Source of the DNA: Pseudomonadota bacterium
GTDB lineage: Bacteria; Pseudomonadota; Alphaproteobacteria; Sphingomonadales; Sphingomonadaceae
Direction: 5' to 3'
Assembly (NCBI GenBank): GCA_963205265.1
Contig: CAUJJI010000036.1
Coordinates: forward strand, 1-64,000
DNA length: 64,000 bases
Shown here: positions 16,304-27,807 of the stretch, in pieces
How positions within the stretch are numbered: the first letter of the stretch is position 1
Layout: every line of letters starts with the position of its first letter
Made by a program: the position numbers and the translations under genes
Notes under the pieces: generated by a model
The model's input: only the letters and a program-made list of their open reading frames with translations
Databases searched by the model: none
Told to the model about the DNA's origin: nothing

Positions 16304-17149
16304 TCACAGGGCCTTGGAGCCGGCCGGTGCGGCGCCGCCGGCAGACTGGCGCTCGAAGTAGAGATTGATCACCGCTGCGGCAGTCTCCTCGATGGAGCGC
16401 CGTGTCACATCGATGACCGGCCAGCCGTTGTCGGCGAAGATGCGACGGGCGAACTGCACTTCTCGGGCGACGTTCTCGGTTTCGACATAGCTCGTGTCGG
16501 GCGCCTGCTGCAGGGAAAGGAGGCGGTTGCGCCGCACCTGAATCAGCCGCTCCGGCGCGGTCGTCAGGCCGACGACCAGCGGCCGGCGCAATCCGAACAG
16601 GGCAGCGGGAGGCGGGCTTTCGATCACGATCGGGATGTTGGCCGTCTTGTAGCCGCGATTGGCCAGGTAGATGCTGGTCGGAGTCTTCGACGTACGCGAT
16701 ACGCCGGCCAGGACGATATCGGCGTCCTCCCAGTCCTCCCAGGCCATTCCGTCGTCATGGGCGATGGTGAACTGGATCGCTTCGACTCTTGCGAAATAGG
16801 CCTCGTCCATCAGATGCTGGCGCCCGGGACGGCCCTTGGCTTCCTGCCCCAGCATGCTTTCCAATGCATCGGTCACCGCATCGAGGATGGCGACCGAGGG
16901 CAGGCCCAGCGCCCGGCAGTGTTCTTCGAGCCGCGTTCGCGTGCCGCCGTCGACCAGGGTATAGAGCACCAGGCCGGGATTGTTGGCGATGTCCCCCATG
17001 ATCCTGTCGAGATGTTGCCGCGAGCGGACCATCGGCCAGAAATGGCGAACGACATCGGCATTGTCGAACTGGGCCAGAGCCGCTTTCGCCATCATCTCCA
17101 GCGTTTCGCCGGTGGAATCTGACAGGAGGTGAAGATGGAGCCGAGACAT
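16304..17149 (-). CDS. Pyruvate, water/phosphate dikinase regulatory protein (DUF299; the RP001-type gene beside hemE)
   Basis: [55 protein letters not shown]. Confidence 0.94.
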
Positions 17150-17477
17150 GTCGAGCCAGGTGCAAGCGCTCGCCGGACGTGGAGAACCCTGCGCATAAAC
17201 CACGGGACGAGTGCGGTGACAACTTCGAGAGGCTTTTTCCTGCCCACTACCCGGGATTCGCTGCGCCGCTTGTGGACATGTGGAGCAGCCTACCCACAGG
17301 CTGGGGACAGTGGGGAAAAGCAATGCTTGACGCGCACCGCATGGGATTCGCAGGCGCGCTTCACTCTGTTCAATACAGGACAAATCGGGCAAGGGGCGGC
17401 TGTGCCCGCTTTCCACAGGCCAACTGACATCAGAATCCTATTTAAAATTCTATATATTTTGATTGGACTCCGCCTCG
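17150..17477. other. oriC: Candidate chromosomal replication origin (oriC)
   Basis: Non-coding gap between divergent DUF299 and hemE genes; CCACA-containing DnaA-box-like 9-mers at 17271-17279 (rc ATGTCCACA), 17290-17298 (CTACCCACA), 17409-17417 (CTTTCCACA); AT-rich block 17437-17466; conserved alphaproteobacterial neighbourhood. Confidence 0.75.
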
Positions 17478-18503
17478 ATGCCCGGTCTCCTCCTCCGTAC
17501 CCTCTGCGGTGAGAATGCTTCCGAACGCCCGATCTGGTTGATGCGCCAGGCCGGCCGCTACCTGCCCGAATACCGGGCATTGCGTGCGCAGCGGGAAGGA
17601 TTCCTGGGGCTGGTCTATGACAGCGACGCTGCTGCCGAGATCACCCTTCAACCCATCCGCCGTTTCGGCTTCGACGGGGCGATCCTGTTCTCGGACATCC
17701 TCATCGTTCCCTACGCGATGGGTCAGGATCTCGAATTCCTGGCCGGCGAGGGACCCAGGCTGTCGCCGCGGCTGATCGACCACGCGTTGGATGGCCTGCA
17801 CGCCGTCCCGCAGCGATTGACACCGATCTACGATACCGTGGCCAAAGTGAAGGCCGGGCTCGGCGGTGGACGCACTCTCCTGGGCTTTGCGGGGAGTCCT
17901 TGGACAGTCGCGACCTATATGGTGGCTGGGCAGGGCAGCCGCGACCAGCACGAGACGCGTGCGCTGGCCTATCGTGATCCCCAGGCCTTCCAGGCGATCA
18001 TCGACGCCATCGTCACCGTTACGATCGACTATCTTGCCGGCCAGGTCGTGGCCGGCGCCGAAGCGGTCCAGCTTTTCGACAGCTGGGCGGGAAGCCTGGC
18101 CCCGGCGGAGTTCGCGCGCTGGGTGATCGCTCCCAATGCCACGATCACTGCGGCTCTCAAGTCTCGCTTTCCCGATCTGCCCATCATCGGATTTCCCAAG
18201 GGAGCAGGCGAAAAGCTGACGGCTTACGTCGCCGAGACCGGGGTGGATGCCGTCGCTCTCGACGAGACGATCGATCCCGCCTGGGCCGCGAAAGCGCTGC
18301 CCGCGGGTCTGCCCGTGCAGGGCAATCTCGATCCGCTGCTGCTCCTGGCCGGAGGCAGCGAGCTCGAGCGCCGGGCCCGCTATATCCTCGACTGTTTTGC
18401 CGATCGGCCGCATGTGTTCAACCTCGGCCATGGCATAGGCCAGTACACGCCGGTCGAGCATGTGGAACAATTGCTCGCGGTGGTGCGCGGCTGGCGGCAC
18501 TAG
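17478..18503 (+). CDS. hemE: Uroporphyrinogen decarboxylase
   Basis: RPIWLMRQAGRYLPEYRALR, ILFSDILIVPYAMG, LVQLFDSWAG-like, QGNLDP. Confidence 0.96.
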   Translation: MPGLLLRTLCGENASERPIWLMRQAGRYLPEYRALRAQREGFLGLVYDSDAAAEITLQPIRRFGFDGAILFSDILIVPYAMGQDLEFLAGEGPRLSPRLIDHALDGLHAVPQRLTPIYDTVAKVKAGLGGGRTLLGFAGSPWTVATYMVAGQGSRDQHETRALAYRDPQAFQAIIDAIVTVTIDYLAGQVVAGAEAVQLFDSWAGSLAPAEFARWVIAPNATITAALKSRFPDLPIIGFPKGAGEKLTAYVAETGVDAVALDETIDPAWAAKALPAGLPVQGNLDPLLLLAGGSELERRARYILDCFADRPHVFNLGHGIGQYTPVEHVEQLLAVVRGWRH

Positions 18504-23523: not shown

Positions 23524-23539
23524 TGTTCCACGTGGAACA
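23524..23539. promoter_or_regulatory. parS: parS site 1: TGTTCCACGTGGAACA
   Basis: Perfect 16-bp palindrome matching the ParB parS pattern TGTTNCACGTGNAACA; between mnmE and mnmG. Confidence 0.93.
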
Positions 23540-25431: not shown

Positions 25432-26066
25432 TCGAGACCGAAGCAGCTGCGCAGCAGTGGTTGCGCAGCCTCCCCGAATGCGATGACGCTGCCATGGCTC
25501 GGTTGGAATTGCTGGTCGCTCTGCTGATCGCTGAGAACGGGCAGCAAAATCTGGTTTCGGGGGCAAGCCTGTCGGAGGTTTGGCGGCGGCACATCGTCGA
25601 CAGTGCCCAGCTGCTGCAGTATGTTCCACGTGGAACATCGCCTTGGCTCGACCTCGGCACCGGCGCGGGGTTCCCGGGTCTGGTCGTGGCTGCGCTGCGG
25701 CCCGAGATCGACATTGCCTTGGTCGAATCCCGAAGCCGCCGGATCGACTGGCTCGAGCGCGCAATTGCTGCACTCCATCTTCAGTCGGCGAAGGTCGTCG
25801 GACAGAGACTCGAACTGATCCCGGCGTATCCGGTCAAGGTTATTTCCGCACGCGCATTTGCGCCCCTGGACCGCCTTGTCGAATTGTCCGCACGCTTTTC
25901 AACAAGCGAAACCGTCTGGCTGTTGCCGAAAGGGCGTTCGGCGCAGCAAGAACTCCAGTCCTTGACTGGATGGAATCACCTGTTCCACGTGGAACAATCC
26001 GTGACGGAGTCGCAATCAGGGGTTATTGTCGGCACACTTGCCGGCAGGAAGGACAAGCTCACGTGA
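25428..26066 (+). CDS. rsmG: 16S rRNA (guanine-527-N7)-methyltransferase RsmG
   Basis: [43 protein letters not shown] overlap with mnmG. Confidence 0.95.
25622..25637. promoter_or_regulatory. parS: parS site 2 (inside rsmG): TGTTCCACGTGGAACA
   Basis: Perfect match; encodes VPRGT in the rsmG frame. Confidence 0.93.
25981..25996. promoter_or_regulatory. parS: parS site 3 (inside rsmG): TGTTCCACGTGGAACA
   Basis: Perfect match; encodes FHVEQ in the rsmG frame. Confidence 0.93.
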
Positions 26067-26842
26067 TCCGTGTCGCTATCGCCAATCAGAAGGGTGGCGT
26101 GGGAAAGACCACGACGGCCATCAACATCGCCACTGCGCTGGCGGCCACCGGATGGCGTACCCTGCTGATCGATCTCGATCCCCAGGGGAACGCTTCCACG
26201 GGGATCGGCGTCGATCGGCCGACGCGGATTCGTTCATCCTATGACCTGGTCGTCGATGAAGTACCGCTCTGGGATTGCATCCAGCATACCAGGATTCCGG
26301 GCCTCGATATCGTCCCCGCCACTGTCGATCTTTCAGGCGCGGAGGTCGAACTCGTCGCGGTCGAAAATCGCACGGACCGGCTTCGAAACGCTCTGGCCCA
26401 CGATCTCGGCTACGACATCTGCTTCATCGATTGCCCGCCGTCGCTCGGACTGCTCACGTTGAATGCGCTCACTGCGGCCGATACGCTCCTGGTGCCGCTG
26501 CAGTGCGAATTCTTTGCGCTCGAAGGCCTCAGCCAGCTCCTGACGACGGTCGAGAGGGTGCAGCAGCGCTTCAATTCCGAGCTCGGAATCATCGGCGTGG
26601 CCCTGACCATGTTCGATCGGCGTAACCGCCTCACCGATCAAGTGGCCGATGACGTCCGTTCCTGTCTTGGCGGGCTCGTCTTCGAATCGACGATCCCGCG
26701 CAATGTCCGCCTTTCGGAAGCACCCAGCCACGGCCTGCCGGCCCTGGTCTACGATCATTCCTGCGCTGGCAGCCGGGCCTATATGGCCTTGGCTCGCGAG
26801 CTGATCGCACGGTTGCCGCCTGAACGGAGGAAGGCCGCATGA
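26063..26842 (+). CDS. parA: Chromosome partitioning ATPase ParA
   Basis: GTG start; VAIANQKGGVGKTTTAINIATALA, LLIDLDPQGNASTG, CFIDCPPSLGLLTLNAL. Confidence 0.96.
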   Translation: MIRVAIANQKGGVGKTTTAINIATALAATGWRTLLIDLDPQGNASTGIGVDRPTRIRSSYDLVVDEVPLWDCIQHTRIPGLDIVPATVDLSGAEVELVAVENRTDRLRNALAHDLGYDICFIDCPPSLGLLTLNALTAADTLLVPLQCEFFALEGLSQLLTTVERVQQRFNSELGIIGVALTMFDRRNRLTDQVADDVRSCLGGLVFESTIPRNVRLSEAPSHGLPALVYDHSCAGSRAYMALARELIARLPPERRKAA

Positions 26843-27807
26843 CTGACGATTCGATCATTCGCCTCTCGGCTTCCCCTCCCGATGGGTCGCCGCTTGCGGC
26901 CAAGCGTAAGCCGGCGCTTGGGCGGGGGCTCGGTGCACTTCTGGGCGAGACACGTCGGGAAGAGCCCCTGGCATCCACGGCGGTGGGTGAGGGCGGTGCA
27001 GCGATCGCTGCAGGAGGACTGGCCTTGCTGTCGGTCGCCGACATCGAGCCGCATCCAGCGCAGCCCCGCCGCCACTTCGACGAAGCGGCGCTTGAAGAGC
27101 TTGCTGCATCGATTGCACAGCGCGGCGTTATCCAGCCCGTGATCGTCCGTCCGCTGCGCGAGGGGCGGTATCAGCTGGTTGCCGGCGAACGCCGCTGGCG
27201 CGCCGCCCAGCGGGCGCAATTGCACGAGATTCCGGCATTGATCCGTCACCTCAGTGAGCGGGAGGTGATGGCGCTTGCGCTCATCGAAAACCTGCAGCGC
27301 GAGGACCTCAACCCGATCGAAGAGGCCAGAGCCTATCAACGGCTGGCCGACGACGAGGGCCTGACTCAGGCCGAAATCGCGCGAATGGTCGACAAGAGCC
27401 GCAGCCATGTCGCCAATCTGCAGCGCCTGCTGGCCTTGCCCCATACGGTTATGGTCCTGGTAGAGGACGGTCGCCTTTCGATGGGCCACGCTCGCGCGTT
27501 GATCGGCGCCGAATCGGCTCACGAGATCGCTGAAACGGCAGTGACGAAAGGCCTTTCGGTCCGCGAGGTCGAGCGTCTCGTGCGTCAGTCGCGCAGCGGT
27601 CGCGTCGCACGCCGGGCGCGGTCCCCGCGCGAGGATCGGGAGAATGCCGATATTGCCGCGGTGCAGGGGCACCTCGAGGATTTCCTCGGCTTGCCGGTGC
27701 GGATCAAGGCCGACGGCGATCCGCGCTCCGGCGCGGTGACGATCCGTTACACCACGCTCGACCAGCTGGATCTGATCTGCCAGCGCCTTACCGGCGGGTC
27801 GATATAA
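26839..27807 (+). CDS. parB: Chromosome partitioning protein ParB
   Basis: PALGRGLGALLG, VADIEPHPAQPRRHFDE, LVAGERRWRAAQRA, ALIENLQREDLNPIEEA; ATGA overlap with parA. Confidence 0.96.
   Translation: MTDDSIIRLSASPPDGSPLAAKRKPALGRGLGALLGETRREEPLASTAVGEGGAAIAAGGLALLSVADIEPHPAQPRRHFDEAALEELAASIAQRGVIQPVIVRPLREGRYQLVAGERRWRAAQRAQLHEIPALIRHLSEREVMALALIENLQREDLNPIEEARAYQRLADDEGLTQAEIARMVDKSRSHVANLQRLLALPHTVMVLVEDGRLSMGHARALIGAESAHEIAETAVTKGLSVREVERLVRQSRSGRVARRARSPREDRENADIAAVQGHLEDFLGLPVRIKADGDPRSGAVTIRYTTLDQLDLICQRLTGGSI

Follow-up and report, generated by a model that had tools for sequence, protein, structure and literature searches.

In Caulobacter crescentus, the chromosomal origin Cori is located between hemE and a gene of the COG1806/DUF299 family (PMC1914354), and TCCCCA is the sequence of the Caulobacter W-box (PMC4285127). 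Ori-Finder placed the origin of Novosphingobium sp. PP1Y near hemE, as in N. aromaticivorans DSM 12444, and three DnaA boxes were reported for the PP1Y prediction (PMC4059872). The origin of Sphingopyxis is likewise predicted at hemE (PMC4741004).

The window, which is the whole 64-kb stretch of DNA that was analyzed, belongs to a metagenome-assembled genome (MAG) of 4.45 Mb in 253 contigs. The nearest named relatives of its HemE are from Novosphingobium, together with Sphingomonadales and Erythrobacteraceae MAGs, and the host is therefore taken as a Novosphingobium MAG. Sequence comparison predicts that a non-coding gap at 17150–17477 is, with very high probability, the oriC of this Novosphingobium, of the alphaproteobacterial hemE–COG1806 type. 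The origins predicted in PP1Y and N. aromaticivorans are from the same genus and likewise lie beside hemE; the accessible text of that report gives no detailed anatomy and does not mention motifs A and B described below (PMC4059872). Since hemE origins were already predicted for these two strains, the type of location is known, and it has strong support here. The origin of this MAG is thereby placed, and a testable base-by-base origin map is provided for the genus.

Flanking genes, DnaA-box-like sites, and AT-rich tract

The gap extends exactly from the DUF299 start codon at 17149 (minus strand) to the hemE ATG at 17478, which confirms the non-coding interval of about 330 bp reported in the initial annotation. 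The left boundary gene (16304–17149, minus strand) encodes a DUF299/COG1806 kinase-pyrophosphorylase (kinase-phosphorylase) with PF03618, and the right one is hemE (17478–18503, plus strand), encoding uroporphyrinogen decarboxylase with PF01208. These two Pfam families stand directly on either side of the gap, as in an origin of the hemE–COG1806 type. The gene order given earlier, dnaQ, coaE, aroE, maf, and DUF299 on one side and hemE, rho, mnmE, mnmG, rsmG, parA, and parB on the other, proved right, and all named genes except aroE and rsmG were checked by Pfam. The DUF299 protein is ~40–58% identical to its Novosphingobium relatives, and HemE of the same relatives is ~75–84% identical, which points to much faster evolution of the left boundary gene than of hemE.

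DnaA-box-like 9-mers cluster in the gap and nowhere else in the window. Three had been named previously, each matching TTATCCACA at seven of nine positions (17271–17279 on the reverse strand, 17290–17298, and 17409–17417). All three are present, but their number was too low: seven 9-mers with at most two mismatches to TTATCCACA start within 17178–17409, out of 60 in the entire 64 kb (Poisson P ~4e-8). Outside the gap, no 400-bp stretch of the window contains more than three. None of the gap boxes matches TTATCCACA above 7/9, and the cluster of putative DnaA-binding sequences that marks this origin type consists of seven near-boxes, all weak.

Site 1, TTCTCCACG (17178–17186, minus strand), has the consensus cTGTGGAtA on the plus strand of the relatives. 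Site 2, ATGTCCACA (17271–17279, minus strand; 7/9 to TTATCCACA), is followed by a second weak box, TGCTCCACA, at 17279–17287. Site 3, CTACCCACA (17290–17298, plus strand), forms an inverted pair with TGGGGA at 17302. On the minus strand, two W-box-like TCCCCA hexamers occupy 17302–17307 and 17311–17316, and the first of these positions reads TGTGGA in many relatives. Site 4, CTTTCCACA (17409–17417, plus strand; CTATCCACA or similar in relatives), is closest to the AT tract and has another weak box, CTGTGCCCG, in tandem upstream (17400–17408). Across the gaps of 40 relatives, TCCACA occurs 3.15 times per 330 bp compared with 0.34 expected. The host DnaA retains the canonical domain IV signature GRDHSTV and should therefore recognize the CCACA core.

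The AT-rich tract noted beside hemE was also borne out and mapped to 17438–17466 (plus strand), where it ends in a conserved GATTGG. It contains the most AT-rich 25-mer of the window, and no other 30- or 50-bp duplex in the 64 kb is less stable. The locus thereby has the easily melted tract of hemE–COG1806 origins, and this tract is a putative duplex unwinding element. As in the Bacillus-type basal unwinding system (BUS), the AT tract is adjoined by a DnaA box that has a weak tandem partner upstream. In contrast to that system, DnaA-trio runs here are no longer than in shuffled sequence. A BUS origin calls for at least three DnaA-trios after the proximal box; the window has a run of three, but the mean run in the 40 relatives was 2.68 compared with 2.61 in shuffles, showing no excess.

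Like this locus, Caulobacter Cori lies between hemE and COG1806/DUF299, contains an AT-rich stretch, and has weak DnaA sites, among them W-box-like TCCCCA hexamers. In contrast, no TGATCCACA G-box was seen in the gap, and it lacks any site within one mismatch of the CtrA sequence TTAA-N7-TTAA or the IHF sequence WATCAN5WTR; a single CtrA-like site with two mismatches occurs at 17442. Caulobacter-like CtrA gating of the predicted origin is not supported, because no CtrA site within one mismatch was found.

GC skew, dnaA position, and parS sites

The host assembly is a MAG in 253 contigs, and GC skew was therefore read in sampled stretches of three near-complete Novosphingobium relatives (G070, G120, and G067). 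In all three, the orthologous gap coincides with a sign change of the skew, as expected of the hemE–COG1806 origin type. A skew minimum clearly elsewhere, named in the initial annotation as evidence against an origin at this locus, was not found in these relatives. In G070, the largest contig (3,533,901 bp, or 3.53 Mb, of a 3.8-Mb genome in four contigs) was taken as the chromosome. Each of the nine 20-kb samples between 0.76 and 2.28 Mb showed negative skew, and the 11 samples located at or beyond 2.40 Mb or within the first 0.57 Mb were all positive. In a contiguous 240-kb stretch (2.28–2.52 Mb), the minimum was located at 2,406,441 and the motif A gap at 2,414,769, which are 8.3 kb apart. 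The opposite sign change falls at ~0.57–0.76 Mb, in a noisy stretch, and the antipode of the gap is near 0.65 Mb, so the gap lies opposite the terminus. A search for a dif-like site near the G070 terminus gave nothing convincing. The sign change in G120 is accompanied by several outlying samples of the wrong sign, and that in G067 is of low amplitude. Within the 64-kb window itself, skew is weak, and the two sides of the gap do not differ significantly in it (P 0.14).

Origins close to dnaA are common in bacteria outside this group. On this precedent, replication could start at dnaA and the hemE gap could be a secondary DnaA-binding region, but the relatives make this extremely improbable. dnaA is located 276 kb from the gap in G070, inside the negative-skew arm, and 880 kb from it in G067, again in a negative-skew region; the distance in G120 is 145 kb.

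Three identical parS palindromes lie within 2.5 kb of one another, 6–8.7 kb downstream of the gap and beside parAB (26063–27807, plus strand, with the start of parA approximate). These perfect TGTTCCACGTGGAACA sites are found between mnmE and mnmG (23524–23539) and, in two copies, inside the rsmG reading frame (25622–25637 and 25981–25996). All three have zero mismatches, and the shuffled expectation is 0.84 even with up to three mismatches allowed.

Conserved footprints and motif A

Pairwise identity in an alignment of 40 Novosphingobium gaps revealed sharp footprints of 64–93% that alternate with near-random spacers of 34–44%. Motif A is the most conserved block (mean pairwise identity 0.93), followed by the box at 17410–17424 (0.89), the GANTC block (0.84), TGACAACT (0.80), motif B (0.79), CTTGAC (0.79), the inverted box pair (0.76), box 2 (0.64), and the AT tract (0.60). 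Lengths are near-constant, with motifs A and B separated by 184–188 bp in 44 of 45 genomes. Motif A is the 13-mer ATAAACCACGGGA at 17195–17207 (plus strand). The conserved TGACAACT (17217–17224, plus strand) lies at a fixed distance from it, and GCTTGAC is conserved in the alignment at 17325–17331 (plus strand). Motif B, ACAAATCGGGCAAGG (17380–17394, plus strand), forms the left half of an imperfect dyad whose other arm is 17403–17412. This dyad, AAATCGGGCA / TGCCCGCTTT (17382–17412), adjoins the proximal DnaA box, and many relatives retain TCGGGCA...TCCCCGAT at this place. Four GANTC sites are present: GATTC at 17255–17259, GATTC at 17345–17349 (kept as GAgTC/GATTC in the Novosphingobium alignment), GAATC at 17433–17437, and GACTC at 17466–17470. 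The relatives' gaps contain 4.5 such sites on average compared with 1.0 expected. The host genome also encodes homologues of GcrA and of the CcrM RAMA domain, which together with the GANTC sites suggests a methylation-linked control as in other alphaproteobacteria.

From this anatomy, DnaA would bind individually weak boxes at 17178, 17271/17279, the inverted cluster 17290–17316, and 17409, and its assembly on them may be cooperative. The AT tract at 17438–17466 would then be opened from the box at 17409, and replication would proceed bidirectionally into the hemE–rho–parAB arm and the DUF299–maf–dnaQ arm. A further layer of control, specific to the lineage, is probably provided by motifs A and B together with the CcrM-type GANTC sites.

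The same conserved blocks could also be read as promoter and operator sites of a mere divergent promoter region serving the DUF299 operon and hemE, with the true origin elsewhere nearby. The flanking genes are indeed divergent, and motif A together with TGACAACT reads TTGTCA, 17 bp, GTTTAT on the minus strand, where TGACAACT could be a –35 element. At locus L088, an inverted-repeat (MITE-like) insertion at 1080–1170 parts the DUF299 gene from motif A, which is degraded there with one base missing; this is one case for the promoter reading. Against it, a sigma-70 scan of the gap found no promoter. A scan of the gap for terminators was also negative. A promoter region alone does not fit the DnaA-like box cluster, the AT tract, parS, and the near-constant length across the whole gap, or the skew minimum within 8.3 kb in G070. 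A promoter role is, moreover, compatible with an origin role, and the promoter-only explanation is considered very unlikely. The initial annotation proposed a probable oriC at 17150–17477 with weak boxes and rested its case mainly on synteny. The boxes are weak as described, but the case for the predicted origin does not depend chiefly on synteny, as box clustering, duplex instability, footprints, parS, and the relatives' skew all agree with it.

Of 120 Novosphingobium genomes, 90 have one exact match to motif A and none has a second, whereas the reversed control pattern gave three matches in all. In each of the 27 genomes where both positions are known, the 13-mer lies 268–316 bp upstream of the HemE match. 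Within the family, 84 of 250 genomes and 37 of 96 genera contain it, again in at most one copy per genome, while in a class-wide sample of other families it was found in 2 of 140 genomes, about the background rate. Named loci of Croceicoccus, Altererythrobacter, Erythrobacter, and Tsuneonella carry it. This near-unique 13-mer offers a simple origin finder for draft genomes of the group and could be used as a probe to pull down an origin-binding protein.

Motif A may be the binding site of an origin factor or equally part of the DUF299 operon promoter. The former is favored because the spacing between motif A and the remainder of the origin varies little. It can be tentatively hypothesized, with some doubt, that in Novosphingobium and Erythrobacter-like genera a dedicated origin-binding factor recognizes motif A, ~186 bp from motif B, and takes the place of CtrA-type control, while Sphingomonas and Sphingopyxis use a different set. 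A paper followed up for OpaA as a lead contained one mention of it and no binding sequence. Main-text passages of open papers contained no description of the single-copy motif, which alone among the leads seems to be new.

The hemE origins of Sphingopyxis and Sphingomonas share the boundary genes, DnaA boxes, and AT tract beside hemE with this locus (PMC4741004). In contrast, motif A is absent from the Sphingomonas and Sphingopyxis loci, and their gaps show a different conserved complement that includes GTCAAGCTGTTGGCAA. The two parts of the family differ in their motif sets but not in their boundary genes, which suggests that control of the origin was rewired and the genes bordering it were retained. 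At the Sphingomonas and Sphingopyxis loci L014–L051, GTCAAGCTGTTGGCAA contains GTCAAGC, which is the reverse complement of the Novosphingobium GCTTGAC.
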